In this document: in pieces, positions 30,601-64,000 of the stretch | How positions within the stretch are numbered: position 1 is the stretch's first letter | Layout: the number at the start of each line of letters is the position of its first letter | Assembly (NCBI GenBank): GCA_015680905.1 | Contig: CM027381.1 | Location: 63,725,501-63,789,500 of the forward strand | Direction of reading: 5' to 3' | DNA length: 64,000 bases | Source: Coptis chinensis | Lineage: Eukaryota > Streptophyta > Magnoliopsida > Ranunculales > Ranunculaceae | Translations under genes and position numbers: made by a program | Notes under the pieces: model-generated | What the model saw: the letters and a program-made list of their open reading frames with translations, nothing else | What the model was told of the DNA's origin: nothing | Database searches by the model: none

Positions 30601-31384
30601 AAGAGGAAGAAAATTAAAAGCACTTGCTGAAGAGCCTAGCAATACAACACCATCATAACCTGACAATGCTCCACTACCAACTGACAATGCAACCTCACCA
30701 GACAATGCACCACCACCACCAAGTAACAATGCACCACCACCACCAGACACTACACCACCTCCTAAAAGATCAAGGAAACGTAAGAGACCTGCAACTCTAC
30801 CACCACCACCAAGTAACAATGCACCGCCACCATTAGCAGACACTACACTGCCTCCTAAAAGATCAAGGAAAAGTAAGAAACTTGCAAGTGCACCACCAGT
30901 TGACAATGCACCACCATCTTGAAGAGGTGGTGGGAGAGAGGTGATTCCATAAGGATATGGGTAATACATATCTCCTTTCACCAGTTCCTCATTTATAAGG
31001 GTATGTATATTAGTTTATTTTCCTATCTTATGTGTTTATTAGGTTATTATTTTAGATTATTTTTTGTTCTCTTAGTGTCAATTCTTTGCTATGCTATTCC
31101 ACAGATCCCAGACTAAAAAGAACATGCCATGTTAGAAAAATGAAACAAGTACAAACCAAAAGGAAAAGCATCTTCCACAAAACTGAGTTCAACACCATCT
31201 TTGTCTATCTCAAGTTCTGCACCAACATTGTCTATCTCAAGTTCTGCACCACTAGCTCCAATTGTCAATCCTCCAAATGAAGCAACTACAAATGAAACAC
31301 CGGCTAAGAAGAGTAGGACTAAAACAGTTGGGTTGAAGACTAGAACAAGCCCAAGAACAATGACAAAACCTGCTTGGAAATGAA
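27668..31384 (+). pseudogene. MuDR/MURA-like transposase of MULE1, inactivated
   Basis: Exon 1 is ATGGCTTCAA (27668-27677); a GT..AG intron leads to 27768, where DEFVLTLWHGGRFDIYTKEF begins the N-terminal PB1-like plant-mobile domain. An acidic linker (about 28150-28540) and a Cys-bearing MuDR N-terminal domain (28618-28863) follow, then the MULE DDE domain (about 29000-29960, with an intron 29468-29552). A SWIM zinc finger comes next (C-x-C...C-x-H in SCTCRMWELSGIPCTHAISA, about 30018-30080), then a CCHC knuckle (30337-30378) and, after another likely intron, a Pro-rich, Lys/Arg-rich tail (30532-30920 and 31201-31383). Several stops and frame changes break it, and the conserved LDGCF motif that holds the first catalytic Asp reads LGGCF. 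It would otherwise cut and join MULE1-type TIRs. Confidence 0.9.
30690..30900 (+). repeat. tandem repeat encoding Pro-rich plus basic NLS-like units
   Basis: The coding frame repeats APPPPSNNAPPPPDTTPPPK followed by RSRKRK, then LPPPPSNNAPPPLADTTLPP with KRSRKSKK. The unit is about 90-110 bp and occurs about twice, with shorter PDNAP pieces on both sides. The basic blocks look like nuclear-localisation signals at the transposase C-terminus. Confidence 0.8.
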
Positions 31385-44582: not shown

Positions 44583-46690
44583 TCATCTAAAGAATCTGGT
44601 GGAAGGATGACACTGATTCTGTTTGAAGAAGTACATCAAGAAAAAAGCGATGTATAGCAGCTGGTCATGACTAAACACAGGGTTCAGCAAATCAATTCCG
44701 ACATACTTAGCAGATTGTCCTTGCGATTTGTTTAATGTCATTGCATATGAAAGGCGAATTGGAAATTGAAGTCTGCTCATTTGAAATGGCAGTTCTTTTG
44801 ATGACGAAGTCAAAGCTATTATGGGGATGCAGGGAAAGTTCCTCGCCTTTTCTCCAGTTAGAATTCGGACTTGGATGACAAGTGGCTTTCAACTCACAAC
44901 CATCAAGCGGGTGCCATTACAGAGACCATCTCTCGGTGCGATATTCCTTAGCAACATTATCGGGCATCCTTCCTTAATTTGAAGCGAAAATGGTGGCAAC
45001 CCTGAAGGATCAAGAGAGTTGAGGTACTCATTTGGATAACAGTTCACAGTAGCACAGTCGCTTAAGCTTTCAACTTTCAACCCCTAACTTGTCAGTAGCC
45101 AAATAAACAATAAGTTCTCCACGAAATAAATCTAATGTGACAAAATTAATTACTGCAACATCATCATTGTGTGCAGAAAGAATTGTTTGCTCAGTAAGAA
45201 AATTTTGGTCAGTTTTACTCATGGATAAACTGAAGATATCACTTTTTGAATATCCCTGCATTTATGAATTGTTGAGGGCAATTGAGCAACTTCTTGCGAG
45301 CCTGTCCTAACCTAAAAAGTCATAATAAAATGGAAAGTCTCAGGTTGATGAATGTTTGAAAAAGAACATTTATAATGTACAGTATATAATGGACAATTAA
45401 AAATAATTGGAGGAGTTTATGCCGCTTTACCTCTATTAAATAATGAGCAAACGCCACATTTTCAGGTAATGAACTATCCAATCTCATATTCTGCACCAAT
45501 GTCAAAACCTTTACATGTTTCTAGAGCGATCTCAAACATTCATCACCAAATATTACTAGGGATCACAGTCGTACTAGGTGGTGACCATTAATTTACATGT
45601 TTCCTGATTCCAAAAGATACTGTTCCAAAAGATGCAACCCATAATCTCTACTTGCTTCTCGATCTGTCGGATTGGGATATTGATTGGGGAAGATAGTGTG
45701 TATCTTGTGCGCCAAATCATCACATATACTTGCTGAGAATTTTGCCCATAACTCATGAGGTTGTGTTGGGTTGCACTCTAGCAAAATAATACTTAATAGT
45801 CTTCTCAACTAGTGTCCCATAGTCATTATAGATGCTTCCTCTAGACATTTGTATCCACTCCTTATCATCTTCAAGAAGTCCACATGCGACACATGTTGAC
45901 TTGAAAGTAGAGTGGGGAATACCATCAACTGTTCGCAGATTTTCAAACGATGTTAGCCCATTCACAAAAGATAATAGTAAACGTAGATATAACCTCTCCC
46001 TTTCATTAAGCTTAGCAAAATACATTCGGTCAATTGCATATCTCTTGTTCCATTTCTGTTTGGTCCATATCCTTGTCTTGTTTATGCCAAACAAAGTGCT
46101 GAGGAAATTCTTGGTAAGTATAAAATCGGGCTTCAAGATCTAAAGCACAACACTCAAAGAATGCAGTTAGACTTGACTTTTGGTTTTTTGCTCTAGCGCG
46201 AATCTTCTCAAGTGGATCTTTTGGGTTATACACAACATGATGCATTCCTTCTAAATGAAGGGATACCCGTACATCAGTGGAGAACTCTTCATGTAATGAA
46301 TATCCATATATCCTCCAAGCAGCTTCAGATGGTCCGATATATCTAGCATCAATGTACTACTGAATCTCACCTCCACCGGCCAACACTAATGTTGTTCGAC
46401 CATGATGTTTGTATATGTACTTCAGTATGTGTGGATATACCTCACACAATGCAAACCAGCACAAACTTCAACATTGATATGATAGTTAAGCATTCTTGCT
46501 AATTGAGGATTATATGGAACGATGACCCCATTGTCAACTTCTAGAAACACTTGTCATCACGACGCATATAGAGGGGATATCTATTTTTAGCTATAGTTGT
46601 CACATTAGCAAAGCGCCAAATCTCTCGTAAATTTGTTTTCTGATTAAAAGAGTTGTAATTAGAGCACACTCTCATTTAAAAGGCAACATG
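44583..46690 (-). pseudogene. Helitron Rep/helicase protein, heavily decayed
   Basis: Read leftward: Rep C-terminal region (YPLYMRRDD, VPYNPQLARMLNYHINVEVC, KYIYKHHGRTTL) at about 46690-46400; DARYIGPSEAAWRIYGYSLH and the following linker (46390-45753, e.g. KRYAIDRMYFAKLNERERLY, YLRLLLSFVNG); then PIF1-type helicase pieces ([77 protein letters not shown]). Between 45570 and 45510 about 200 residues with the Walker A/B motifs are missing, so there is an internal deletion besides many frame breaks. The Rep HUH region was not found in the window. No Helitron ends could be fixed. Confidence 0.88.
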
Positions 46691-46793
46691 AACAACTCTG
46701 TGGTGGAGCTCCAAATCCTGAGTAAGTTGCGACTTCAACATAAACTGCGAAAAGCACCACAAATTTTAGAATGTTATTGGGGAACATATAACA
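46691..46793. other. short spacer, nothing recognised
   Basis: Continues Helitron-like decayed sequence and ends before the TATAACACCCCG motif. Confidence 0.3.
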
Positions 46794-46822
46794 CCCCGTT
46801 TATTTCTTTTATTTTTCATATT

Positions 46823-46843
46823 ATAATAATAATAATAATAATA
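46823..46843. repeat. (TAA)n microsatellite
   Basis: About seven TAA units in a row (ATAATAATAATAATAATAAT). Confidence 0.9.
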
Positions 46844-48361
46844 GATAAAACAAAAATAGGATAGATATTAGTAAGGATGGGAAACCCAGTAGGGTTAACA
46901 GATAACCCTTCATCCTTGTTTTTCGGAGGGTTTTAAAACAAAAAAAGGGAGTTCACATGTAAAGTTTATTTTTACACAGAGAAGAAAAAAGAGAGTTTTT
47001 CTTCATAGAGGAGAAGAGAGGTTTATTGCTGGAGATTTACTGATAATTGATATCAGCGGATAACAGGAGCGTATCACGAGTGAGTAGTCTGAACATGTCC
47101 TTTTAAATTTTGCTGATCATATATGTTAGTGATTTTCTTATTTAATATATTGGGAAGTTGTGATAAAAATGTTGATTTGATAAAAAGGATTTAATTGCCA
47201 TTCATGTGAATTCAAGCCTCACTGTGGTAAGGCATAAATATGGTTCCTCACTTTGGGTAGTACTGAGTATGTTCTCTGTAGTCAATAGTGCCGACTTTTA
47301 GATAAAATTTTGAAGTACTGTAGTTATATTAAATTCTGACGAAAAAAATCTTATTTTCCTAATTGTTATGCTGTGATGTTGACGAGTATGTGTATTAGTA
47401 AATACCAAATCATTGTTTAATTTGACTCGCATAGATTTTATATTACTAGGGTTTGGTTTTATTGCTCATGCTGGTCTTTAGGATTTTGTTGGTGGTTGGA
47501 AGTGTTTTGTGGTAATGAGATGATCTATATGGGTTTTATGGGTTGCTGGGGAATGATTGGTAGTGGTTGAATTGTTGTTTGAGTGCTGTGAAGCTTTGAA
47601 AAGCCATTAATGGCGTCAATATTGCGATTTTGAAGGGTGAGGGAATTGAAATTTTATTGTATAGAAAGATGGGGTTTTGAGAGAGGAGTAAAACTGTAGT
47701 GGAGTAAGGTTGGGGGATTGTGGTGGTTGATTGGTGGTGGAGGCCCTGGTGAGGTGAGGAAGAAGATGACTAGCAAAATTCTTTTTGCTGTTGGGCATTG
47801 GCCGAAATTAGTTTATGTGGACTTGAGTGTTTTATTTTTCTATTTCACTTATGGGCTTAAGTTTAGATTGGGCTTGGGAAAGGCCAAAGGCTTTGGGGCC
47901 TTAGTCTTTTGGTTTTTGGTTAGATTGACTTTAGGACTGGTTCACTGCTGTTGACCTTTGGCAGGTTGACTTTGACTGTTGACTAGAGTTGACTTTGACT
48001 AGTTGACCAAGTTTGATTTTAACTCGGATTATGATTTGGTCTATTAGAATAGGTCTAGGGCTATTAGCGTGTTTGGCTTTAGGCTAAGACCTTTCTATAT
48101 ATACGTGTGTATGTGTATTAACTACTATGTGATATTTCAGTCTTTTATGATATACGACGCTATGACACTTAGACATCAATATAATTAATAATGCGTAAAC
48201 AATAATATATTAAACAAGATACTCCTCCGTTCTCTGAAAAAATATATGCAATAAAGTTTGATAATGCTTAAACAAATTTACCGCACCCTTTTAGAACTCT
48301 CCATGCCTCAAGTTTTGGAAATGAGATTTTATGACTTATGATGTCATATGTTAGGTGGGCG

Positions 48362-48688
48362 TTTATTGAATGTGCCATAAATGGCCCGTTAGCGTTATAA
48401 AGGAGTATTCATTGACTGTGCCATGAATGAACCGGGTATTCATTGAATGTGCCATGAATGACCAGATTGTTTGGATTGCCCTAGAGAGGAACTAAGGTAT
48501 TTGCCTTGCTGGTTAGTTGTATTCCTTGAGTGTACGGGAATGTAGAGAGGGGTATTCCTTGAATGTGGTGGGAATGACCCAGGGCATTCATTGAATGTGC
48601 CATGAATGGCCCGTTAGTGATATGATAGGTATTCCTTGAATGTGGCAGGAATGACCTAAGGTATTCATTGAATGTTCCATGAATGACC
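48362..48688 (+). repeat. array of eight 27-nt stem-loop units with covarying arms
   Basis: Each unit has the form arm-loop-arm: ATTCAT TGAATGTGCC ATGAAT (copies near 48437, 48584 and 48661; near 48406 with one loop change), ATTCCT TGAATGTGGY RGGAAT (near 48552 and 48629), ATTCCT TGAGTGTAC GGGAAT (48520) and TTTAT TGAATGTGCC ATAAA (48363). Units are followed by GACC or GGCC and are spaced 30-80 bp apart. The arms differ between copies but stay complementary, while the 10-nt loop is nearly constant. No known name. Confidence 0.85.
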
Positions 48689-49261
48689 TGAGTTTTATGC
48701 CCAAAGAGGCTGTGAAATATGTGTATGAAAGCCCAGAGATGGCTATGATATTATAGTAGTCGGTGAGAGAGAGGCACACAGGAATGTGTGATTTGGCAAA
48801 TGTGTGGAGTGCAAATCATGGAGTAGGTACTAAAGGGTGGGTGTATAAGAAAAGTAACTGATTAATTAATAAGATAAATTGATTTGATTGTACGAGTGTG
48901 CTTGGACTTATATTTGAATACTGATAGGATATCTACGTATGTTTATTTAGAATTTCTAACTTTCATTTGCAAGATGGTAGGACTTAATAATATTTTGTGT
49001 AGGGACGCGGTCCTACCCTTATACAGAAGTGGATATCGGTAAGATTTAATTCCATTACTTAGTTATTAAAATGAGTTATTATAATGAGTTAATTGAATAG
49101 AAGTCTTGCTTGGGAAAAAAATATGCCGGTTGAAATGACGGAACTACCTGTCTTCCAAGCTGAGAATAGGAAACATATAAAGTGTATTAGTTCCAAGATA
49201 TGGGTACATATAAAGTGTTTGTTGGATAATTAAAGTCTAGAAATGATTTTATATTGTTAGT

Positions 49262-50736
49262 TGATAAGAGCCCAAAAATATAGTTTTAACCCTGTAACAG
49301 TCCTACTATTAGACCAATTATGTGAGTAATAATTAAGAGTTAACACTGATTACGTGTTTTTATGCATTTCAGGCTTCAAAGTCCATTATGTGCAGAAATG
49401 TGCCACTTTAGCGAGATAAAGGAGCAAAGGTCGGTTACTAAGGAGTTCCGTGATTAAAGGCCAAGATTCAAGAAGACAAAGCCTTTCTAAAGCCCGGTCA
49501 AAAGCTGAAAAGTCGATGGGGCAGAAACAACACACAAGTCAGCAGAACTTCCGAAGGCCGTATCATTGGACTCAAACCTTGGAATGGGGCCTACCTTATG
49601 TCAAAACGACCGGCTCGAAAGGGATTTCCAATGGCCTAAGCCTTGATCCAATCAGATGAGCAGAAGTGGACAAAAAGTCTGTTGAAGCTAACTGCAGCTG
49701 AAGAGGCCTTTTTAGACTGAAAGAATTGGGTTTTGGGCCTGATTCTCTGGCCCAAAACATGGCTCCAAGCCCATGCACAAGTTTTGGATCTAAAACTATA
49801 AAAACCAAAGCTTAACTCTTTGTTAATGGTAGCTAATTAGACCTAAAAACTATATATAATTCTAGATCTAGTTTTTAGTAGATTAATTAAGTTTAAGTTC
49901 TATTTTCAATTCTTGTTTTAGATTAAGTCCTTGAATCATTGTTCTTGATGGATTAAATAAATAAAATAGTTATTTTGTCAATTTCAATTTTTGTCATTTC
50001 AATTTATAGATCTAGTTTTAATTCTTGTTGATTATCATTTCGTAGTTTAAGTAGATTGAAACATTGTTAGTTAAATTAGTTAAGTTAGAATTTTAATCTG
50101 ATGTGTAGTTATAATTCAGTGGGAAATGATGGGTTGATGACTCAAGGCTAAAACCTCCATTAGAGGGGTTGATGAAGCTTTGATGAAAACTTAGTGGTAT
50201 AGTGTAGAAGCGTTGTAGAATCTATTCCACTCTAGAAGGTCGTGATTCGCCATGAGAATGGGTGGACGACCTCACATGCTAGTTAGTATTCGGTAGAAAT
50301 GCCATGAACACTAGGGATTAGAACTCGAAATTCTTGCCGTAAGAATGTAAGAATCGAGATACAAGAATCTATGCTAGGTTATTAAGTTGGATTCGAGGTG
50401 GATTCAATTCCCCTCTAATCCTTTATCTAGATTCAAAAACAATCATATTTCCATAGCATTCGTAGTTTAAATTCAACATAATCAATTTTATATTGTATCG
50501 TTGTATAACACCCTTCGTAAAGCTCTCAATAGACTTAAGAACGATTAATTAGACTAGAAAACATTCCATGCTAGAGAACTAGGAGTGGAACGAATTTGTT
50601 ACTCCACTCTATTTCGATAGAATTGAGAGTAGAAACTTTGATAAAGTATAAGGCACTTAAGATAGTTTAGTTTACTTACGTTTTGAGTTTCATCGTTCAT
50701 TTCGTAGGTAAACTTTTATCATTTTACCTTTTATCA
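49262..50736 (+). repeat. 5' LTR of Athila B
   Basis: TGATAAGAGCCCAAAA ... ACCTTTTATCA, 1,475 bp, matching the visible part of the 3' LTR at 62690 and, in reverse, the LTRs of element A. It holds a TATA box (49796). Several short ORFs inside it are chance frames. Confidence 0.94.
49796..49803 (+). promoter_or_regulatory. TATA box of the Athila B 5' LTR
   Basis: ACTATAAAAACCAAAGCTTA in the middle of the LTR. The same element appears in the 3' LTR (AGTATAAAAACC, about 63222) and in element A, so it is the conserved promoter core that starts genomic RNA. Confidence 0.7.
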
Positions 50737-50738
50737 AA

Positions 50739-50772
50739 TGGCGCCGCTGCCGGGGATCGAACCCGGGTCGCC
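50739..50772 (+). other. primer-binding site, long match to tRNA-Asp
   Basis: TGGCGCCGCTGCCGGGGATC followed by GAACCCGGGTCGCC starts 2 nt after the LTR. From memory of plant tRNA-Asp(GTC), the complement of its 3' part is matched over about 34 nt with two differences, including the whole T-arm, well beyond the usual 18 nt. Confidence 0.85.
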
Positions 50773-51413
50773 GCTGCCATCTTAGTTTCACTTTAGCATT
50801 GTTTTCGTAGTATAATTAGTCATTTTTAAGTCCCATTAAACCCACCCACCCTTGTTTGATTCATACTGTGGTTGTCCGTTTCAGCGTTGAAACGTTTTGC
50901 AAAAATTACACCGAGCCGCGACAGCCTCTAACCGAACCGCACTGCCCCAAATGCTGGAACCTTGGGCGACCCACCCCATCTTGAGCGACCATACTAAAAT
51001 GCTGTAACTTGGAGTTACACGGATGCGATCGAGCAGCCCTACTAAGCGAAGCGACCCACTAAGCTAAATTTTCCGATTTCTACAGTTTTGTTTGAACTTC
51101 GATTTTTAAGTTTTTCAGTGTTCTAACTTGTTATTTACACGAACACGATAAACAAGACGCTATTCATAAAGCGAAGCAAGGACGCTATCAGGTATTCCTT
51201 TCTTCCATACCTCGCATCTCCAGTTAGAGGTTTATACTAAAATATCAAGATTGTTTGGAGTGTTGTCGTGTTTATACTTAGACTTGTATGAGATTAAGGT
51301 CTGGTCAGAGAAAAACACCGAACGTAATTAACCATCAATGTTAACAAACAAATCTATCGAGTATACCAATCACTACACCTCTAGCTACTATTCCACCAAC
51401 CACACCTGATATA
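50773..51413 (+). other. 5' leader of Athila B
   Basis: Untranslated region between PBS and gag without an ORF of note. It holds the repeated GCCGCTGCC just after the PBS and a pyrimidine-rich end before the gag start. Confidence 0.6.
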
Positions 51414-52790
51414 ATGGCTGAAGAAAGAGAGACTCCTCTCTCCGACTTTTACAAAGCCTTGAGCGATAGCCCTAAATCTTGCATCGTTCTAGCAGACCCA
51501 GTGGGGGATTTTCGAATTCCCCCAAACATATTTAATTTGTTACCCGTTTTCCATGGTTTAGACCATAAAAAACCTTGTCAACACATGCGTAGGATTGAAC
51601 AAGTCCTTACAACATTCCATCATCCTACGGTTGGTACGGAACAAATTAAACTGAGGGTATTTCCCTTCACCTTAGCCCGATAAGGCGTCGTCTTGGTTAA
51701 CTGCCCAAGCGCCTAACTCTATGGACTCGTGGGCTAAACTTGTTCAGCTGTTTATGGAACATTTTTACCCACCCCTAAAGACGGATGAGATGCTTTCCAA
51801 GATTCATTTTCTCCGAAAAAATCCTCATGAATCATTTTCTGAGGCTTGGAATCGTTTCACCGATGTGCTTATAGAGTGTCCACACCATAACCTAGCAAAA
51901 GACACGTTAGTTCGTGCCTTTTTCAAAGGACTTCAACATCACCATAAAGAAGTCCTTGACATAATGAATGGGGGTAGTTTCCTAAGTAAAGGAGCCTCGG
52001 AGGCTTACAAATTTTTAGAAGAGCAAACTAAACGCAATAACAATTGGGGGGGTAGTGATGATATCCCCCGCTCTGCTAGTTCTTCTTCAACAGTTAAGGC
52101 CGCCGGTATGTTTGAGATGAAATCCGATCCAGAACTTAAAAATTTAATCGAATCTCTAACTAAAAAGGTTGAGGCTATTTCTGTTCAACAAAAGCCTATC
52201 CCCGTCATGAATGCCAACTCCAACCCATGTAATTTCTGTTTGAGTCCTGAGCACCCTGACTCCTATTGTCCTCTCGCCTATGAACAACAACAATTAGAGC
52301 AAGATAATGTTTGCTCCATTAATAGCTATCATATTCCTAATGCCCCATGGAGACAACATTCTAACTTTAGTTTGCGAAACAATCAACAAGTTACACCTCC
52401 AGGGTTTAATAACCAAAATGTTAGGCAAGAAAACAACTATAACCAAGCTCCACCTAGGCAAGGACAGGGACAAAGTCAGGGAAATTATAATAATTATAAC
52501 AACCAAGAGCAACCATGACAAGGTCTAGCACAAGGTCAGGGTAATTATAATAGTTATAATACCAATAGAGGTATCGTTCCGGTTAACAATAGTAACTATC
52601 ACAACCCACCCATAAATAATCAACGTGAGATAGTTCGGTCGCACCACACCGTGACTACTACTACACCATCACAACCGGATCGTATAGACGCCTTTATATA
52701 GGTTACCCAACAACTTTTCCAATCAATGACTCAATCAAACCAACAGATCTTACAATCTATAAATCAGGGCATACAACAATTAGCCCAAGA
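51414..52790 (+). pseudogene. gag of Athila B
   Basis: Start ATG 51414, preceded by CACCTGATATA as in element A. The retrotransposon-gag domain covers about residues 60-200 (FPFTLA, DSWAKLVQLFMEHFYPPLKT, NPHESFSEAWNRFTDVLIEC). A CCHC zinc knuckle (CNFCLSPEHPDSYC, C-x2-C-x4-H-x4-C) lies at about 52228-52269 and a Gln/Asn/Tyr-rich low-complexity region follows. Breaks: one extra base near 51677 shifts the frame (element A lacks it), TGA at 52516-52518 and a TAG near 52699. The TAG stands where element A has a Gln codon, so a C-to-T change explains it. Gag would form cytoplasmic virus-like particles that package the RNA. Confidence 0.9.
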
Positions 52791-54318
52791 GAAAACCCAA
52801 CCAAAAGGCATGTTTCCAGGACAAGCGATAACAAACCCTAAAACAGCAAACACAGCCTTTGAGGTAAACGGTAATACTAGTACGGAAACTAAAATTGTAG
52901 GTGACCTAAATGCCATCACCACTCTCCGTTTTGGAAGAGTGGTTGATAACAAAGTAATTATGCCTATAGATAGCCCATCAGTACTCCCTACACCGGATAT
53001 CGAACTAGATACCGAAATAGAAACTAAAGAGCCTACCACTGTAGAGGTACCAGTTCAACAACAAACTAAGAAACAGAATGCCAGGGTTACACATCAAGTC
53101 GAGCCATACGCTAAATATAGAGCGAAACCACTGTTCCCTCAGAAATTAGCCATGCTAACCAGGGATACAAACTTTGAGGAGATTAGGAACGTTTTCAAAA
53201 ATCTAACGATAAACCTTTCTTTTCTCGAAGCTATTAAAAAGCTACCTAATCACGCTAAGTTTCTTAAGGAGTTGTGCACTACTAGGCATAAGAACAACAT
53301 ACCTAAAGACGCCTTTCTAACTGAACAGTTCCCAACTTTATCCAAAAATAATGGAATTGTTAAGTACAAGGACCCTAGTAGTCCAACAATAAAATGCACC
53401 TTAGGAGATTCCCACATGACGACAGCTTTATTAGACCTGGGGGCGAGTGTTAACTTACTCCCGTATTATTTATATAAACAAATAGGTCTATAGGAAATGC
53501 AACCTACAAAAATAACGTTGCAATTAGCGGACAGGTCAATTAAGTATCCTAAGGGTGTCGTGGAAAATGTGCTTGTTAAGGTTCAGGATTTCTACTATCC
53601 TGTGGATTTTGTTATACTCGATACAGAAGTTGCTAACGACTCTATACCGATCATCTTGGGGCGTCCCTTCTTGGCAACTGCCAACGCACTTATAAATTGT
53701 CGCGATGGTAAGATGTCCTTATCTTTTGGCCATCTTACTGTTGAGGTAAATGTTTTTAAAATGATGAAACAGTTACTAGATTCGTCTATGGATGGGGAGG
53801 TTAGCATGATCGAGAGCTTAGCTCAAGATTATTTTAACTACACGTTTCCCGAAAACAATATGTACAAATTCCTTTCTTTTGGAACTTCAGATTTTGTAAA
53901 TGACTCCTACTTAGAGGAAGTCAACACCATCCTTGAGTCCACACCAATTGTAGACCCATCAGTTGCTCCATATATTGAGTATGAAGACTTGCTACCTAAG
54001 CAAGTATTCATTATGCAAAATGAGGACCCCGACGAAACATCTATTGATTTTCCTTCCACCCCAGTGCTTAAACCTCTTCCCCCGGAGTTAAAATATATTC
54101 AACTTGATCCGGATGGTAGTCATCCGGTAATTATATCTTCTCTATTATCTAAGAATGAAAAGACACGTTTAATTCGGGTGATTTGGGAACATCGGTCTGC
54201 GATTGGTTGGTCCCTAGCCGACATTAAGGGAATTAACCCTAATGTTTGCACTCATCGTATCCATTTGGAGGATAACGAAGACTTCTCGAACCTCGGTAAG
54301 CTTGAACCACTGCCATGA
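52791..54318 (+). pseudogene. protease region of Athila B gag-pol
   Basis: Frame in line with gag. It contains the segment LTRDTNFEEIRNVFKNLTIN and FLEAIKKLPNHAKFLKELCT conserved in Athila, then the aspartic protease active site, DLGASVNLLP (about 53431-53460), and the closing motif PIILGRPFLATANA (about 53650). A TAG at 53491-53493, just after the active site, interrupts the frame; it is open again from 53497 to 54318. The protease would mature the gag-pol polyprotein. Confidence 0.88.
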
Positions 54319-55625
54319 AAGAGGTGGTTAGGGAAAAAGTCTTACGTTTACTTTCGATCGCGGGTATCATATACCCAATCTCGATAGCGAATGGGTAAGC
54401 CCCATTCATGTAGTTCCTAAGAAATCGGGAGTTACCATGGTACGTAACGGGAAGGGTGACTATGTTGTCACACAAGGTCCTATGAAATAGAGGATCTGTA
54501 TTGATTCTGACGTTTAAATGCTATGACACGAAAGGATCAATTTCCTTTACCTTTTATAGATCAAATGCTTTCGAGCGCCTAGCTGGTCATGCTTTTTATT
54601 GTTTTCTGGATGGCTACTCAGGCTATTTTCATATTATTACTGATATTGATGACCAAGAAAAGACTACCTTCACATGTCCCTTTGGAACGTATGCCTATAA
54701 ACGAATGCCTTTTGCCCTTTGTAATGCTCCCGGTACCTTCCAGTGTGTATGCTTCATATATTTAGTGACATGGCGGGCTTTATGGAAGTTTTCATGGATG
54801 ATTTTTCTATCTATGGAGACTCCTTCACGCATTTGTTTGTCTAACCCGTCTAAGGTTTTGACACGGTGTGAAGAAAAGAGCCTCGTTTTAAAGCTGGGAA
54901 AAGTGTCATTTCATGGTGAAAAGGGCATAGTACTAGGTCACATTGTATCTAGTGATGGCATCGAAGTAGATAAGGCCAAACTAGATAAGATAGTGACTCT
55001 ACCTAAACCACGGATTTCTCGTGATATTAGAGCCTTTCTAGGCCATGCGGGTTTTATAGGCGGTTTATTAAAGACTTCTCAAAAATAGCTAGGCCTTTAA
55101 CTAATATGCTTTTGAAGGATGCAATCTTTGATTTTAATTTTAACTGTAAGCAGGCTTTTGAAACTTTAAAAGCCGCCCTAACCTCTGCACCAATTATACA
55201 GCCTCCCGATTGGTCTAAACCTTTCGAACTCATGTGTGATGCTAGTGACTATGCAGTTGGTGCAGTCTTGGGACAAAAACTAGATAATAAGTCCACTGTT
55301 ATTTATTATGCTAGTAAAACCTTAAACGATGCTCAACGGAATTATTCAACTATCGGAAAAGAATTCTTAGCTGTCATTTATGCTTTAGATAAGTTTCGTC
55401 CTTATTTGGTTGGTTCTAAAACTTTAGTTTACACGACCATCGCGCCCGCTTAAGTACCTTCTTGCAAAGAAGGATGCTAAGCAGAGATTAATCCGATGGA
55501 TCCTTCTCCAGCAAGAGTTCACATTAGAAATAAAGGACAAAAGAGAGGTCGAAAACGTAGTTGCCGACCACTTATCTAGACTCACAAACGACGATAATAG
55601 TGATTCTGAGTCCATACCCGACTCT
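54319..55625 (+). pseudogene. reverse transcriptase and RNase H of Athila B
   Basis: RT motifs occur in several frames: SPIHVVPKKSGVTMVRNGKG (54400), LAGHAFYCFLDGYSGYFHI, TTFTCPFGTYAYKRMPFALC, NAPGTFQ (54570-54740), the catalytic FMDDF (54791-54805, in a different frame from its neighbours) and VLGHIVSSDGIEVDKAKLDK (54935). RNase H: LMCDASDYAVGAVLGQ (55225) and YYASKTLNDAQRNYSTIGKE, then after a frame change LLAKKDAKQRLIRWILLQQE. At least four frame breaks. It would copy the RNA to DNA in the particle. Confidence 0.9.
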
Positions 55626-55659
55626 TTTCCTTATAAGCATCTATATGTTATTTTTTCAG

Positions 55660-57049
55660 CACCATGGTATGCTGACATTATAAATTATTTAGTGGCTGAT
55701 GTTATGCCTTATAATTGGTCAAGAAATGAACGTAAGAAGTTCTTGTACAGAGTTAAGTTATACTACTGGGATGAGCCATACCTTTTTAAGTATTGTCGGG
55801 ATCAGATTATTAAATCGTTGTATTCCCGGTGGGAATATAATGAAGTTCTATCGTTCGCCATGACAAAGAGTGTGGTGGCCATTTTAGTGGGATGAAAACA
55901 GCCGCTAAAGTTCTTCAATGTGGATTTTATTGGCCTACCCTTTTTAAGGATGCCCAAGTGCATTGCAAGACGTGTATTCGTTGCCAACAACTTGGGCGAA
56001 TCACGAAGCGTAATATGATGCCATTAAATCCAATCTTGATAGTAGAAATTTTTGACGTTTGGGGCATTGATTTCATGGGTCCCTTCCATGTTTCCCACAG
56101 TTTCATTTATATTCTAGTTGTCGTGGACTATGTGTCTAAATGGATAGAGGCCCTAGCTTGCCGTAGTAATGACCATAAGACCGTTGTATTTTTTATTAAA
56201 GAATATATTTTCTGTCGGTTTGGCATTCCTAAAGCCATCATTAGTGATGGTGGAACACATTTTTGCAACAGAGTTGTTGCATCCCTAGTGAAAAAGTATA
56301 TAGTTACACACAAAGTAGCAACTCCGTATCATCCACAAACTAGCGGACAAGTAAAAGTTTCTAATAGGGAAATCAAAAAGATTTTAGAAATAACTGTAAA
56401 CCCTGATAGGAAAGACTGGTCGAAGCGTCTATCGGATGCCTTATGGGCGTATATAACTACTTTCAAAACTCCTATAGGTATGTCTCCCTTTAGACTTGTA
56501 TTTGGGAAACCATGTCATTTGCCCGTTGAATTAGAGCACCGTGCTCTGTAGGCTATAAAAAGCCTTAACTTCAATATTGATGAGGCAGGTGTCAAACGCA
56601 AGTTGCAATTGAATGAGCTTGAAGAAATCCGTAGCGATTCTTACGATCTCGCGAAGGATTATAAAGCTAACATGAAACGTGTTCATGATAAGCAAATCTT
56701 GCGCAAAGAGTTTGTGGTCGGTCAAAAGGTCTTGCTTTACAACTCCCGTCTACATATTTTACCAGGGAAACTAAAAACCCATTGGTCTGGTCCTTTTCTG
56801 GTTATTGAGGTCACCCCTTACGGGGCAATCACCTTGGTAAATCCCAATGACAACAGTACCTTTCAAGTTAATGGTCAACAGTTAAAACATTTTCACGAAC
56901 TTCGTCCCGATGTAGAGGAAGTCCTTTTCAGGGACCACCTGTCTATGAGGATTGACCTTTGTCATTTGGTGTACTTCCTTTCACTTCCATATAGTGGTAA
57001 GTGCACCATTCAGGTAACCAGGCCCTCCCTATGGAGTGTGTGGCTGTAA
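55660..57049 (+). pseudogene. integrase of Athila B, catalytic Glu lost
   Basis: The N-terminal zinc domain is split by a frame change at about 55860-55900 (HH part upstream, CKTCIRC downstream). The core is long and mostly open (55892-56551): first Asp in WGIDFMGPF, second Asp in [10 protein letters not shown]. The residue 36 positions later, which is Glu in the family (NGQ.E.SNRE context), is Lys here ([10 protein letters not shown]), so the DDE triad is broken by what looks like a single G-to-A change. A TAG at 56549-56551 precedes the C-terminal domain (56603-57049; LLYNSRLHILPGKLKTHWSG). The GPY/F-like part is present as WSGPFLV. Confidence 0.9.
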
Positions 57050-58003
57050 GTACCGGATCCTAAGTCCACAGTTAACATAATTCACGTTTTCCACTTTTGC
57101 ATGTTTTCGGTTTTGAGTCATGTTCCTCTATGGGGTGAATTATGTATTTATTGTTTTTCATTTTTCTTATAATAAACTAATAAAAAAATAAAAAATTCTA
57201 AATCGTAGAAATAGCAATCCAACAAGTCTTGGGAATCTGACTTTAAACGACCCACGTTAGAACAAATTTTGTGTTTAAAAATTTTTTTGGGGGTGGGCAG
57301 TCGGTCTTTCCATCCGGATTGCTCGAACTTTTCATTTGTGTTGCTTAGGCCCATTACTTGTAGTTCAATTAGGTTGACGTTATCTAAAACTTAGATTTCC
57401 TTCATTCGCATAACTTACGTCACACACGTACTTCGAGGCATTTTTCTACCTTCTTATATGTCACCCGTGGTTGGAATTGAGTGTTTTATGGATCATTAGA
57501 TTGAAAATTCTCTACTGATCATTTCTATAACTCATTCGCCAAAATCGGACCAGTAACGAAGCGGCAAATTGAATTTGAAATTGCGCGAAAAATCGGAAAA
57601 CTCGGAATTCAAATTGGGCTTGGGCCCAAACTGCACACACGTCTGTGCGTCTCCTTCCTTCCCAAAAACGCACAGTTCTTTCCTTTTCCAATCCCGCCGG
57701 TTACCAAAGTTTAAAACAAACCTTGAACACCAAAATAAAAAAAAAAAAAAGAGAGAGAAGAAAACCTAACTACACCCACGCCTAGCATTTAAATCAAATT
57801 GAAATCTTCTCCAAACCATTACTACCACCAAACCTAACAATTTTAAAACTCCGAAAACAGCCACCAATCAAGTTTTCAAACTACCACCGTACCCACCATC
57901 GCCACCACCGTGTCTGTGGTTGTTTTACATCAAACTCGCCTCCCCCACCGTCTACAAACCATTACTTGTCTCAGAAACTTCTATGGCGCTATGACGAAGA
58001 ATT
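57050..58003 (+). promoter_or_regulatory. spacer after integrase with PPT-like motif and AC-rich leader
   Basis: No ORF. It begins at CTGTAAGTACCGGATCCTAA, a possible splice donor conserved in element A. A PPT-like TTTTTTTGGGGGTGGG lies at 57283-57298. From about 57700 the sequence becomes rich in A and C with few G (CCACCACCG..., AACCATTACTACC), the look of an unstructured 5' leader, up to the next ORF. Confidence 0.55.
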
Positions 58004-58965
58004 TTGCCGGAGCACGCGTTTGCTGCCGACAGCTTCGCGCCATTTTACGATGCGGAGATGATTAGGAGGGATTGGAACGGACTGTGGTACCCGCCTGAGG
58101 AGTTCTATCACTATGATTTGGTAGAACAGTTTTATAAGAAGCGAGAATTGGAGGGGGATAGGATTTTCATAAAGGTAGCAGGAACGAGGAGGAAATAACG
58201 AGGCAGGTTGTTGGTCAACTGTTAGGAATTACGGCTTTGAAAGCAACCTAGTAATGACAATTTAGGAATCCCGATTATCTTTGGAGTTCCCGCTTTGATG
58301 AAAGATACCGCGTGGAGGGTGAATACAATCCGACATCTCATTCGTCCCCGATCAACCACGAGAACCAATCAACCGGCCAGGCTCGGTGGATTGGTAGGAA
58401 CATCCTCGGGAAAGACAAAGTCAGCGATATCGGTCTGCAATGTCTGCACGTTCTCTGGATTTTGCAAACAAATAAGTATAATTTCTGCATCCTCGATTTA
58501 ATGTTTAATGTGATTAGAGGAGTGGGAAAGAGCTTGGCGCCTCTTCTCGTATTGATCACTAAGATCATGCTCTCCTTTAGAGCTGTCGCAAAATCTACTC
58601 CTATTAAGATCAAATTGCATTCTAATGCAAGTATCTATACGGATTGCATCTAAGAGACTTGGCCGTTTTCTGAAGGAAAGATGGTTGAGTCGGAGGATGA
58701 AAGGGAGGATATGACATGTCTGGATGACGATGCATTAGATAGTTGTAGTTCTAATTTAGAACGCATACAAGTGTTGCAAACTGCCTTGCGTTGCGTTTAT
58801 GGTATTTGTGAAAATATCCGAGATAGACAGATTGTAGTTCGAAATAAGCAAACGAACCTTCAGACGATACTTGAAATGCTCGAAAGGGGTCAGGACAATA
58901 TCTTGTCTAACTTGGAGACTATCCACCAGTATCACCAAGCCCGGTTATCGATTACTTTCGGGTGA
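58004..58965 (+). pseudogene. Athila ORF in the env position (first), plant-transposon-protein type
   Basis: The start region has ATG at about 57991 with an extra base shifting into the frame 58004-58198, which reads FAPFYDAEMIRRDWNGLWYP, YDLVEQFYKK and IFIKVAGTRRK. This resembles the 'putative plant transposon protein' domain of Athila/Tat ORFs (..VREFYANL...V.VRG..). The C-terminal part (58681-58965) is acidic at first and then coiled-coil-like (LERIQVLQTALRCVYGICEN ... LQTILEMLERGQDNILSNLE). The middle (58300-58650) is open only in shifted frames. No signal peptide or convincing membrane segment is seen, so calling it an envelope protein is not supported. Its function is unknown. Confidence 0.6.
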
Positions 58966-59977
58966 GATGGAAGCCGCGCTTGTTCCGAATAGAGATGCTA
59001 CGACGCATGCCACCCGTGGAAGATTTTGTTTTAGCCGAGTTTGAAAGGCATGAGCGTCATCACCGAAGGACAGATGGTTCAAGACATTCTCCATCCCAGG
59101 GCCAATCTCCATCTCAGGGTCCATCTTCATCACATAACTAGGTGTTCACCATCAGTTTGTGTTCGCTGTTATTTCATGATTTCGTTTTATTAGTTGGATT
59201 TTAATTCAGTTGTTAAATTTAAATATTAAGGTGTTTGTTTTATGTTGTTTGGTTTTAAATTTTAGTTTTAATATAATTGGTTATTTTTGAGTTCTGCTTG
59301 TTTTTATCATTAATCCCACCTTCCCGACTTGTTTGGGGGTGGTAATATTTATACCGATCATAATTCGTTATATGATCATCTGCTGTAAAGTTGTCTTGGA
59401 GGAAATGTTGAGAATTTGGCCGATATCGGCATATCTATGATTTGTGTGGTGGTAGCATGAAATCTAGGAGAGTTTAGAAGTTACTATTCTAAATCTAGTA
59501 TGAAAGATACCAGGATTTTTAGAAAATCAAGAAGATGGTTTGTTTCCGTTTTCGGGTTTTGAATTTTTCTATTTCCGAAAATTGCCTTAAAACAATTTGG
59601 GAACTTGCCGATTCGTTTTGGAAGCTTAGAACCTATTTAAACTCCCTTCATTCTACACTAACAAACCACACTACACCCCACCATCATCCCACACCTTTCA
59701 CTCCAAGCTTTTCCTTCTTTTTCCTGTAAACTTCGTTTTCAAAGCATTTACTGGCCAGCTGCTTCGTTAAAACCACCTAGCATACTGTACACTTTCAGAA
59801 AGTTTACTCAGAGCATGACCCGCGCCCTCCTTGAGCGCGACTCGCGGCCAAACACTGTAATTCCAAAACCCACGAGCGACCCGGCAAAGCGCGCATACAC
59901 CGCCATCTATAAACACGGAAATTCCAATTTTAGAGGGTCATTCCAGGATTTTGGAACTGTTCAAAAGAGTCGTTGAG
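58966..59977 (+). promoter_or_regulatory. spacer with PPT-like motif and possible internal promoter
   Basis: Holds TTGTTTGGGGGTGG (59329-59342). About 290 bp further on is a TATA-like CCTATTTAAACTCCC (59632-59646), followed by an AC-rich leader (CACACTACACCCCACC at 59667). Element A has TATATAAACTTCATTC and the same AC-rich run (about 21190-21235, minus). The order TATA, leader, ORF suggests an internal promoter for the second ORF. Inferred only. Confidence 0.45.
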
Positions 59978-60712
59978 ATGACATCTCCTATTGTCATACC
60001 TGAACAGTCTTTCGAAGACGTGTTGGGAACCGAGACCTATGGACATTGGTTCCGACACAGGATCCTGCAGTTAGGATGGCGTCATCTACTGGTAAGTGAT
60101 GACGATTCATATTCACCACAGCTTACTGCTTATTTCTACGACCACGTTAAATTCTATTGTAATCAAGATGGAGAACAAGAATTCTCCGTCATAGTCGATG
60201 ACACGACACATAAATTCAATAAAAATGTGGTCGCTTTAGTTTCAGGATTACCAATACCTGATCATGTTCACACATGGGCATATATGACCGATAATGAATA
60301 CCTTTATAATTATACATATTTCCATGAGTATTATGGGGGAGGGGTATTTTGAGTAATGGACCAGGGGCGATATAGCATTGCCCTTGGTAGCCTTTCCCTA
60401 AATGTAGGCACCACCATGTTATTCATCCTGATGAATATTTTGGGGGAATGGCAGTTCATTTCTGCAAACAGTACTGCTGGTGACATTTTCCTCGCTTTAG
60501 CTGAGGGACGTCGCCGATATGACATTCCCCGAGTTTTAGTCGCTAGTTTTAAGAGAGCCCAAAGCATGAGGCGTAAGTATCTTCTTATGCCTATTTTGGT
60601 AAGCCACATCATGCGTAGTTGTTTACCTGTATTCTGTGCACAATTCACAGATTGGAAAAGGGTTGAAGTTATGAGACCCACCAATTGGGTGGTTAAGCTC
60701 ATTCGCGAATAA
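59978..60712 (+). pseudogene. Athila ORF in the env position (second), one nonsense codon
   Basis: From ATG 59978 (MTSPIVIPEQSFEDVLGTET) one frame runs to 60712, interrupted only by TGA at 60350-60352, which a single G-to-A change of a Trp codon would explain. That gives 245 codons. FNKNVVALVSGLPIPDHV is like the block seen in Athila/Tat plant-transposon-type proteins; LALAEGRRRYDIPRVLVASF and a Trp/Arg-rich end follow. There is no signal peptide and no clear transmembrane helix, so an envelope role is doubtful. The equivalent region in element A is mostly deleted. Confidence 0.6.
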
Positions 60713-62675
60713 TGACTTGGCGGGATGGCGGTCGCAGCCTCATTTGGTCGCCCCATACATCCCATCGGACATAATAACACTTAACAGGTTAGCATTAGTA
60801 GATGATAAATGGCGGCAAGCTTGGCAAGTTATAATCTTTGGCGGGGATCTTGAAGGAACCTCATCCGTTTCTTGAGGAGGAGGATGTTTAAAAGCGGGAG
60901 ATAAGGTAAGTTTTAGTTTTGTTATTGTGCGCTTATGTCCCAAGCCATTTAATTCTGTTAACCCCATAATGGGTGAAACTCTTATATAGAGTTAAGGTCG
61001 AGATTTTTATTTTCCCTATATTAGTATGTTCTAACCTTGTTTTGCGGATGTTCCGCATTTCACGCGTTTCCATGGTATTTTTCTACCCTCTTTATTTAAA
61101 TGCTTTGAGGACAAAGCATGCTTCTTGTTTGGGGGCATAGAAACACGTGTAATTAAGGCATCTGTTAGGATATAGATATGTATAATATGCATTTGTTTTG
61201 AAGTTAAAATTTTCAAAAATATAAATAAATAAGTTTATGCTATACACTTAGGAATATTGGTATTGTTTTCTTTCTCTATGCTCTTAACAATCTAGAAGTC
61301 TCACGTAGCTTTTGCATCGAATAATTGTTTAGAAACTTAGGTTAATATGTAGGTAATAATCTTTGCATCTATCTATAAATATATTACATGAGTATCTATG
61401 ACTATTAGCGATAAGTTTAAAAATCTAGGCTAGAGTACTTATTCTACAAATCCTGTGAGAATATAACCTAAAGCCTTATATGAGCGAAACATTTGAGAAA
61501 TGACACAAGGGAGAAGTAAAATCCGGATAGAGAAATCACACGTCCACTTGCTTGATCACTATGTCGTATCCTAAGTGAGAATTTAGGCCCTCTTTGGATC
61601 AATATAGCCAGAAATTCAAACCTATGAATTATTTTCCGCTACTCGCCCCTCTGAGCCTTTCTTTAGCCTTTCATAACCCACAAATCCTTTACCCTGTTAC
61701 AAAAACAAAACAAAATAAAAAAAAAAAAAAAATCAACCTACCCAATTTAGAATAAGTCTGAGAATAGAATGAGGAAGAAAAAAGAAGAGAAAAACCGGTG
61801 TAAACAAAAGTTAGTTAATTGCTTCAGAAAAGAAGTTTCCATCCAAAGAAAAATAAAATAAAAATAGAAATAAAATAAAAACTCTGAAAAAATAGAATAA
61901 AAGGAGTTAAAAGCCAAATAAAAAGAAAAAAAAATGGCTAAGGATGGAAACAAAGTGTAAAAGCAAAAGTAAATAACAAGGTTTTCTCTAAGTTACATAA
62001 TATGAAGACTCTACTATCTCAGACTTGTCCTTTTGAATATCCATTTCCTTCCTTCTTAAACCATCTCCTAATCCCATGACACCTAATAAAGACCTCTAGC
62101 TCAATTAGGAATAGGTTAGTGTGATAGTAAGTGGCGGATGTGTTTGATCGACCCGGCTTCCTTGTTGTCATTGAGATTGCAAGGTAAAGTGTGCCCACTT
62201 GCACTTGGAGTAGAAAACTTGAGCGGAAAAAATCAGAGGTTTTTTTGTCTTGACATTTATGTGAGGACCTACTTAAGGACGCTATTCGAAGTTTTTCAAA
62301 AAACGAACCCGCTAGGCATTTCATAGTATTACTTATAGTATATATATTTGTATCATAGATGATTGATTATTATGCATATATTAGTTTAGGTTTTCGACTT
62401 GGTTATTCTTATTCAATTGCTAGTGAGATGTATAGATAGTTGAGACATGAATGAGGAAACAATAGTTTTATTTCTTAGTCTTTGTAGTATAGATGAAGTT
62501 TGTGAGTACCTTCATCGGGAAACTCTCACGAGGGCTATAACTTCGTCCCACTAGGGAATTCCTAGTGGTTTAAGGCCTTGTTGCATATGGTCAATGCAAT
62601 CGCACTCAGCGAAACGAGAGTAGTTAGAACTCCATTTTTGGTCACTTATTCTAATTTCTCATCTTTGCTTGTGCT
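60713..62675 (+). other. long 3' non-coding region of Athila B
   Basis: Contains the predicted intron (60906-61047), the stem GCTTTGAGGACAAAGCATGC followed by the PPT-like TTGTTTGGGGGCA (61103-61137), an A-rich low-complexity stretch (61700-61935) and sequence that mirrors 18833-20660 of element A. No ORF of interest. Confidence 0.7.
60906..61047 (+). other. predicted small intron in Athila B, acceptor damaged
   Basis: Donor AAG|GTAAGTTTTAG at 60906 and branch site TTCTAAC at 61029. The acceptor position reads TTTTGCGG where element A has TTTTACAG, so the AG is lost here (AG to GG). The matching intron in element A is intact. Confidence 0.5.
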
Positions 62676-62689
62676 ATTTGGGGGTGGTT
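62676..62689 (+). other. polypurine tract of Athila B
   Basis: TATTTGGGGGTGGT directly before the 3' LTR start TGATAAGAGCCC, the primer site for plus-strand DNA. Confidence 0.85.
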
Positions 62690-64000
62690 TGATAAGAGCC
62701 CAAAACTGTAGTTTTAACCACATAATGATCATACTTTTAGACCAATTATGTGAGTAATAATTAAGAGTTAACACGATTCGTGTTTTATGCATTTCAGGCT
62801 TCAAAGTCCATTATGTGCAGAAATGTGCCACTTTAGCGAGATAAAGGAGCAAAGGTCGGTTACTAAGGAGTTCTGTGATTAAAGGCCAAGATTCAAGAAG
62901 ACAAAGCCTTTCTAAAACCTGGTCAAAAGCTGAAAAGTCGACGCGGGCAAAAATAGGTCACAAGTCAGCAGAACTTCCAAAGGCCGTATCTTTGGACTCA
63001 GACCTCGGAATGGGGCCTACCTTTTGTCAAAACGACCGGCTCTGAAAGAGCTTTCCAATGGTCTAAGTCTTGATCCAATCAGAGGAGCAGAAGTGGACGA
63101 AAAGTCTGTTGAAGCCAACTGCAACTGAAGAGGCCTTTCTGGACTGAAAGAATTAGGTTTTGGGCCTGATTCTCTGGCCCAAAACATGGCTCCAAGCCCA
63201 TGCACGATTTTTGGATCTGAAAGTATAAAAACCAAAGCTTAACTCTTTGTTAATGGTAGCTAATTAGACCTAAAAACTATATATAATTCTAGATCTAGTT
63301 TTCAGTAGATTAATTAAGTTTAAGTTCCATTTTCAATTCTTGTTTTAGATTAAGTCCTTGAATCATTGTTCTTGATGGATTAGATAAATAAAATAATTAT
63401 TTTGTCAATTTTGATTTTTGTCATTTCAATTTATAGATCTAGTTTTAATTCTTGCTGATTATCATTTCATAGTTTAAGTAGATTGAAACATTGTTAGTTA
63501 AATTAGTTAAGTTAGAATTTTAATATGATGTGTAGTTATAATTCAATGGGAAATGATGGGTTGATGACTCAAGGCTAAAACCTCCATTAGAGGGGTTGAT
63601 GAAGCTTTGATGAAGACTTAGTTGTTTAGTATAGAATTGGTTGTAGAATCTATTCCACTCTAGAAGGTCGTGATTCGCCATGAGAATGGGTGGACGACCT
63701 CACATGCTAGTTAGTATTTGGTAGAAATGCCATGAACACTAGGGATTAGAACTCGAAATTCTTGCCGTAAGAACGTAAGAATCGAGATACAAGAATCTAT
63801 GCTAGGTTATTAAGTTGGATTCGAGGTGGATTCAATTCCCCTCTAATCCTTTATCTAGATTCCAAAACAATCATATTTCCATAGCATTCGTAGTTTAATT
63901 TCAACATAATCAATTTCATATTGTATCGTAGTATAACACTCTTCGTAAAGCTCTCATTTGACTTAAGACCGATTAATTAGACTAGAAAACATTCCATGCT
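62690..64000 (+). repeat. 3' LTR of Athila B, cut by the window end
   Basis: Starts TGATAAGAGCCCAAAACTGT and matches the 5' LTR to the last base of the window (1,311 of about 1,475 bp). Differences from the 5' LTR are scattered substitutions and 1-3 bp indels. Confidence 0.94.

Follow-up and report, generated by a model that had tools for sequence, protein, structure and literature searches.

A hairpin array in a Ty3/gypsy long terminal repeat of Coptis chinensis as part of a probable structured RNA domain

The long terminal repeat and its hairpin array

The window analysed here, a stretch of 64,000 nucleotides from Coptis chinensis (contig CM027381.1 of assembly GCA_015680905.1), carries at 48362-48688 of its + strand an array of seven canonical 31-nt hairpin units and one shortened unit (48521-48541), which forms the middle of a larger domain (48287-48837, about 550 nt) whose ends are joined by P1, a long-range helix of 17 pairs. 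Judged from LTR ends, target duplications, a primer-binding-site-like sequence and matches to gag, reverse transcriptase, RNase H and integrase, the array sits in a Ty3/gypsy LTR of about 3 kb. The features are listed below, with F1, the LTR type of the window, and F2 being two of the three LTR types compared.

46787-49261, + strand: 5' part of the Ty3/gypsy LTR (starts TATAACACCCCGTT), recognised by its start motif and the end of homology and interrupted by a nested LTR retrotransposon
48096-48103, + strand: TATA-like motif, about 170 nt before the domain
48250-48255, + strand: AATAAA just upstream of the domain
48287-48304, + strand: P1, 5' strand of the closing helix
48305-48309, + strand: P2, 5' strand (GCCTC), pairing with 48771-48775
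48330-48348, + strand: hairpin H0, TATGAC...GTCATA (100% of cells paired in 20 sequences)
48357-48387, + strand: hairpin unit u1 (ATTTAT/ATAAAT type; GTTTAT in the window), from repeat finding and profile scan
48403-48433, + strand: hairpin unit u2, from repeat finding, unit-block comparison and profile scan
48434-48464, + strand: hairpin unit u3, from repeat finding, unit-block comparison and profile scan
48495-48518, + strand: hairpin u4, different from the units and located between the unit blocks; T-A in F1 becomes C-G in F2
48521-48541, + strand: shortened unit u5 (ATTCCT/GGGAAT, 9-nt loop)
48550-48580, + strand: hairpin unit u6, from repeat finding and profile scan
48582-48612, + strand: hairpin unit u7, from repeat finding and profile scan
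48627-48657, + strand: hairpin unit u8, from repeat finding and profile scan
48659-48689, + strand: hairpin unit u9, from repeat finding and profile scan
48730-48744, + strand: small hairpin H3, AGCC...GGCT (92.5% of cells paired)
48771-48775, + strand: P2, 3' strand (GAGGC)
48776-48789, + strand: small hairpin H4, ACAC...GTGT (96.2% of cells paired)
48791-48816, + strand: hairpin H5, ATTTG...CAAAT (100% of cells paired)
48817-48837, + strand: P1, 3' strand of the closing helix (CATGGAGTAGGTACTAAAGGG)
48975-49018, + strand: GGTAGGAC...GTCCTACC, a hairpin of its own on the downstream side of the domain, preceded by a 3'-splice-site-like stretch

In 20 compared long loci, the LTR starts with TATAACACC and ends with TGTGACA. 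Among these loci, which were in part checked to a result, target duplications of 5 bp were recognised by eye at L019 (AAATT), L020 (CTGCC), L021 (CAAGT) and L028 (ACAGG), with L009 and L022 showing no perfect duplication; another one was recognised at the F2 copy L067 (AACAC). The primer-binding-site-like TGGTATCAGAGC follows the LTR in 2/20 long loci; in L025 and L027 the LTR runs into the primer-binding-site-like TTTTGGTATCAGAGC, which we take to be an iMet match, at a distance of roughly 850 nt from the domain. The internal part of L027, a region with a second copy 7,080 bp away (99%), matches Retrotrans_gag, RVT_1, RNase H and Integrase_H2C2, and an SH3_Tf2-1 domain is present in fragments of L014 and L022. 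A chromodomain-like stretch was seen by eye in L022, for which fragment Pfam gave just SH3_Tf2-1; a chromodomain at the end of the integrase would be expected of a chromovirus (Tekay/Del-like). The original prediction had placed the array in a probable LTR or leader, of which the LTR is borne out by ends, target duplications and primer-binding-site-like sequence, whereas we infer the leader position.

Homology to other copies stops at 49259-49261 of the window, where a nested LTR begins, and the 3' part of the array's own LTR was not seen in the window. An assignment of the array to the LTR of the element filling 49262-64000 was ruled out, since that LTR match (49261 with 62689) starts after the array. 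This second LTR retrotransposon is inserted in the array's LTR at about 49261, with a 5' LTR from about 49262 and a 3' LTR from about 62690 past the window end (94.6% identical over 1.3 kb) and integrase pieces at 55844-56551. Comparison of 6321-27123 with 49262-63751 gave inverted relatives of the nested element at 73-91% identity, for example 60895-62858 with 20643-18644 at 88%, so the window holds further related elements in the other orientation.

In the canonical unit, a loop of 10 nt tops an inner stem of six pairs, which a bulged G separates from up to four outer pairs (GGGC/GCCC, GGGT/ACCC or AGGT/ACCT); with these four further pairs beyond the bulged G, the stems are longer than earlier described. 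All eight hairpin units with the arms originally named are present, seven canonical and one shortened, namely ATTCAT/ATGAAT in the units starting at 48403, 48434, 48582 and 48659, ATTCCT/AGGAAT at 48627, ATTCCT/GGGAAT at 48521 and 48550 and (G)TTTAT/ATAAA(T) at 48357. Two unit types recur, ATTCAT/ATGAAT on the one hand and ATTCCT with GGGAAT (T.G) or AGGAAT on the other. The loop, described as nearly fixed, is less so: TGAATGTGCC is exact in 3/7 canonical units of the window copy, the others having TGACTGTGCC, TGAATGTGGT, TGAATGTGGC and TGAATGTTCC. Seven units of the window were found by a profile scan, in which L001-L008 were left out because they duplicate L009 onwards and the window; repeat finding equally gave one family of seven copies. 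The array contains a block duplication (48357-48466 vs 48582-48691, 83% match). Throughout the genome (935.6 Mb, 116 contigs), the 29-nt unit pattern has 5,925 exact matches and the reversed pattern none, so the pattern is commoner than chance. At least 40 full-length relatives of the array occur, these being the ones scored among 3,291 first-look candidates; the 39 others match at 94-96%.

The closing helix and the conservation of the domain

In the predicted fold of 48262-48862 the ends of the core pair with each other. Over 59 copies, decay included, the mean pairing probability of the two P1 halves is 0.67 and 0.73 and exceeds 0.5 in 49/59 and 47/59 copies, respectively; these 59 cores (520-645 nt) were kept after several copies with an absent core or one of wrong length had been dropped. 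In 3/3 copies scanned, the best partner of the P1 5' strand within the core is the P1 3' strand, and in four copies 0 to 24 of 2,000 shuffled strands paired as well. Swapping of P1 strands between families did not separate them, as the F2 5' strand with the F1 3' strand pairs best; the F1 3' strand is G-rich and a good partner for F2 as well, so the swap gives no sign of coevolution.

Copies sampled in genome order (the first 100 of the 5,925 matches fall into 43 clusters, of which 20 were used, all on one contig and each with at least one intact unit) comprise six full F1 copies, eight F1 copies without part of the core, four F2 and two F3 copies. F2 does not contain units 1-3 and has the other two unit types arranged in 77-nt dimers; F2 and L058 have an extra insert near the 3' side of the domain. 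Five of the eight partial F1 copies have one common deletion; with eight of 20 genome-order copies devoid of part of the domain, it appears dispensable to partial copies. L049, L050, L055, L057, L061 and the second L020 copy lack the same stretch, about +168 to +522 counted from the array start, which suggests the spread of an LTR form that has lost half the domain. L020 and L014 each hold two LTR-derived copies about 3 kb apart, the neighbour being the deletion form.

Across the types, all seven copy pairs compared have 84-90% identity in the aligned columns of the core (68-89% of the shorter length matched), whereas over the 300 nt upstream of it their alignment is as poor as that of shuffled sequence in 7/7 pairs. 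The 250 nt downstream are barely alignable in 4/5 comparisons with F1 (matched 0.05-0.06, shuffled 0.02-0.03; the comparison W-L062 reached 0.21) and alignable between F2 and F3 (0.71 and 0.77); further out, the F2 LTR by eye resembles F1 again. Equally, among 20 copies picked by array similarity, pairwise identity is 93-97% from about -100 to +500 of the array start and 48-90% outside. The contrast is milder in the six full F1 copies of the genome-order sample (core 95.0%, upstream 86.7%, downstream 92.2%); the four F2 copies gave 92.9% for the core, 89.8% upstream and 88.7% downstream. A module that is common to LTRs with different flanks and ends in inverted repeats, the P1 strands, might also be a former small DNA transposon with P1 as its terminal inverted repeats. 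This origin is highly improbable, considering that the domain lies inside an LTR in 20/20 long loci of the first set (picked by array match) and that the F1 flanks of P1 are mutually complementary and not direct repeats.

Eight F1 copies of the genome-order sample have lost all or part of the P1 3' strand. Compared with the reference L027, 34/288 letters of the P1 5' strand differ in these partner-deficient copies vs 4/216 in the six full copies (Fisher 1.1e-5, an optimistic value because the copies share ancestry), with the upstream sequence differing by 18.3% and 12.8%, respectively. Over 42 full copies, a set excluding L014, L018, L020 and the reference L027, 45/1,512 letters of the P1 5' strand differ. 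The H0 stretch is also more variable (34/450 in partner-deficient vs 8/336 in full copies), and since this neighbouring hairpin varies more, the remaining domain appears to loosen as a whole.

Paired changes and the strand on which they occur

Compensatory change of the arms had been claimed originally. Within the array of L027, units 1-3 differ from units 7-9 in nine arm letters, which amount to four double-changed pairs, one single change with pairing kept and no broken pair; three of the four doubles have a standard pair on both sides (P = 8e-5 for random placement). The same comparison in the window copy gave 11 letters with four doubles (three paired), one kept and two broken, and at least three paired doubles were found in 33/38 scorable copies (2/40 were unscored owing to gaps). 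In the window's own type, F1, there is too little variation of the inner stems (40 copies compared) for covariation to show.

Covariation across types was assessed in an alignment of 20 sequences (eight F1 including the window, two F3 and ten F2) with 126 pairs. Of all cells, 96.7% are paired vs 36.0-45.9% with slid partners. The covariation score, 0.093, exceeds that of shuffled (0.070; 0/500) and slid alignments (0.019-0.041), and double-changed cells number 56 vs 25.1 shuffled (0/500), both measures being blind to kinship. Two of the five covariation measures are without clear excess, namely the pairs with a double change (11 vs 8.0 shuffled, 30/500) and the pair types (47 vs 47.3 shuffled, 372/500). 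The comparison is thus positive for score and double-changed cells, but with little excess in these two measures.

Between F1 and F2, 16 letters differ over 92 scorable pairs (34 were not scorable), giving six doubles, all paired, four singles with pairing kept and no broken pair; the six doubles, two in P1, one in u4, two in u7 and one in u8, were reached by 0/100,000 random placements. The non-unit helices alone contribute three doubles of ten letters with none broken (P 0.002), and the units u6-u9 three doubles of six letters (P 7e-5). F1 and F3 differ by two doubles (one paired), three kept and one broken (P 0.006), F3 and F2 by one double, two kept and two broken (P 0.09). The tests on P1, P2, H0 and u4 are partly circular, since these helices were defined by a consensus fold of the very alignment being tested. 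Conservation of the helices including the closing helix in three LTR types, with family-level differences that keep pairing, is supported by these comparisons. On the level of sequence comparison, the paired changes appear to exceed what relatedness and column make-up would give, as expected for structured RNA under selection. Hence, compensatory change stands between unit blocks and between LTR types, where paired changes exceed random placement, but not for the scattered changes in dead copies, which are mostly uncompensated.

Repetition and paired changes might also arise without any selection on RNA, by tandem duplication, unit exchange and gene conversion of arms in decaying copies. Such processes are visible in the block duplication inside the array and in the 77-nt dimer expansions of F2; unit doubles between LTR types can be unit swaps, so unit exchange could explain the three unit doubles between F1 and F2, half of all doubles, and the decay variants (63 vs 58, see below) are without strand bias. 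As a full account, an origin without selection is nevertheless unlikely in view of the three doubles without a broken pair among ten letters in non-unit helices (P 0.002), of a domain kept while its flanks were replaced and of a P1 that relaxes without its partner. Simple tandem duplication, which with random decay would not keep the pairs according to the original prediction, thus explains part of the repetition as block duplication, and unit exchange could give some of the paired changes, but the doubles in non-unit helices (P 0.002) argue against duplication alone.

The + strand is taken as the sense strand because of the side of the primer-binding site. G-U wobble on one strand only had been proposed as a sign of RNA selection; this does not apply to variants among 435 units (2/437 dropped by score), where G.T occurs 63 and A.C 58 times outside the s6 pair, so sporadic decay is without strand bias, but it does apply to the fixed T.G pair of ATTCCT units, which favours the + strand, and to the fixed single differences between F1 and F2, 4/4 of which are G.U on the + strand. 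Folding energy showed no preference for the sense strand in four copies (z for + and - strand -3.79/-3.61, -1.99/-5.04, -3.35/-5.05 and -1.21/-1.76), both strands folding better than shuffles. About equal folding of both strands, together with arms that are inverted repeats of near-fixed sequence, would fit a function at the DNA level, where a dimeric DNA-binding protein recognises the units as a cluster of palindromes in an LTR enhancer or silencer and the arms co-vary since both half-sites bind the same protein. Such DNA sites would predict neither the complementary changes between P1 strands about 500 nt apart, nor the fixed singles that are 4/4 G.U on the + strand, nor the extra change in one P1 strand without the other, and are judged quite unlikely. 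The target of selection is probably an RNA domain, about 550 nt long and on the sense strand, within the Ty3/gypsy LTR.

Possible functions and related RNA structures

If so, the array would be part of a cis-acting structured domain in the sense RNA transcribed from the LTR. P1, with P2 beneath, would seal off this domain and display its near-identical hairpins side by side, their loop conserved and one G bulged. Transcription of the LTR from the upstream TATA region would place the domain in the R/U5 leader. TATAWA occurs 150-180 nt upstream of the extracted core in 27/39 copies; this spacing is weak and was set aside because the F2 copy L067 has another F1-like TATA region several hundred nt further upstream. 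The repeated hairpins might provide several binding sites for one protein, the likeliest being the element's own Gag in packaging or dimerisation and the next a host protein for export or translation. Packaging or dimerisation of the genomic RNA by Gag is tentatively put forward as the function of the domain, with some doubt.

The surroundings of the domain may bear on RNA processing. AATAAA is located at most 60 nt upstream of the core in 41/41 full F1 copies and on both sides of the core in F2, and splice-site-like motifs just downstream of the domain include CTAACTT..TTGCAG in 13/24 and GGTAAG in 19/24 F1 copies with enough sequence. Directly after the 3'-splice-site-like TTTTGCAG, the downstream hairpin GGGTAGGA[C/T]...[G/A]TCCTACCC is found in L027, L016, L080 and L083 (exact pattern in 3/10 loci tried, L080 by eye), with C-G in F1 and T-A in the F3 copy L083. 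These motifs, and repeated hairpins that fit cooperative binding, are consistent with an R-region or leader fold like that of the HTLV/BLV R region, which would bring AATAAA near a poly(A) site behind P1 or keep unspliced RNA available for export. Plant poly(A) signals are, however, loose, and AATAAA is a common word that in F2 lies on both sides of the core, so a role in RNA processing is somewhat unlikely; as it would be exerted by this very RNA domain, it competes with the packaging step alone. Control of translation by a long hairpin in the leader, past which ribosomes shunt or at which they enter, is improbable: size, long closing stem and probable leader position of the domain would suit it, and shunt leaders are described in plant pararetroviruses (PMC5902531), but several hundred nt separate the domain from the gag frame.

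With respect to known systems, the domain belongs to a known sort, the structured cis-acting RNAs of retroelements, with a hairpin array that appears to be new. Leader packaging and dimerisation elements of retroviruses (HIV-1, MMTV and others), which bind viral Gag by experiment and lie near the PBS, are likewise multi-hairpin structured RNAs near the 5' end that are conserved by pairing; in contrast to these, the domain is inside an LTR of about 3 kb and Gag binding is a supposition. The Rex-response fold of the HTLV/BLV R region and the HIV Rev-response element are large closed multi-hairpin domains as well, the R-region fold also with AATAAA upstream; the resemblance to the present domain is one of overall layout. 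A large modular RNA domain of plant LTR retrotransposons, in which whole hairpins are gained and lost within a conserved closing helix and which serves as a multi-site platform for one protein on the RNA of the element, seems a genuine possibility. Such a platform would be, in its mode of action, a plant counterpart of the response or packaging elements of retroviruses. Provided that a protein does bind there, the domain offers a testable handle on RNA recognition, packaging or export in plant Ty3/gypsy elements, to which many plant genomes owe a large part of their DNA. The thousands of copies with natural losses of hairpins or of one closing strand mean that the genome supplies its own mutants, and the interior of LTRs can hold RNA structure that becomes visible across families within one genome.

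Among plant elements, barley BARE belongs to another superfamily than Ty3/gypsy. Its dimerisation and packaging signals, mentioned as conserved between BARE1 and BARE2, are cis signals on the RNA of a plant retrotransposon as well, without a hairpin array in the account of these signals (PMC3735527). Retrosat2, a plant LTR retrotransposon with LTRs of 3.2 kb and a reported R domain of 2 kb, has in common with the present LTR its length, a long R domain, AATAAA motifs and a short tandem repeat in R, but this repeat is CTTTTT and 'hairpin' is absent from the main text of the report (PMC3485330). Residual conservation in long retroviral R regions has been linked to stem-loops, which preserve both strands of R in a similar manner; this is stated for retroviral R regions, the LTRs of plant Metaviridae being described as too variable in length to model (PMC3601003). 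Functional RNA structures in plant retrotransposons are furthermore reported with the ENE element of Arabidopsis Evade (PMC12501189) and hammerhead-bearing retrozymes (PMC4918200), from which, by these reports, the present domain differs as a hairpin array in a closed domain without an Rfam match.

No named counterpart had been recognised originally, and this was upheld: Rfam 15 gave two matches in 46000-52000 of the window at E up to 1, neither of which overlaps the domain, literature searches, judged by the titles and abstract starts of open-access papers, gave no description of such a hairpin array, and viral contigs have no exact match to a 23-nt unit. Inside the nested element, 51800-51893 on the - strand weakly matches plant snoR71 (29.1 bits, gathering 40; E 0.009), and elsewhere in the window, CACCACC-rich tandem repeats are located at 30658-30898 within a likely coding region.
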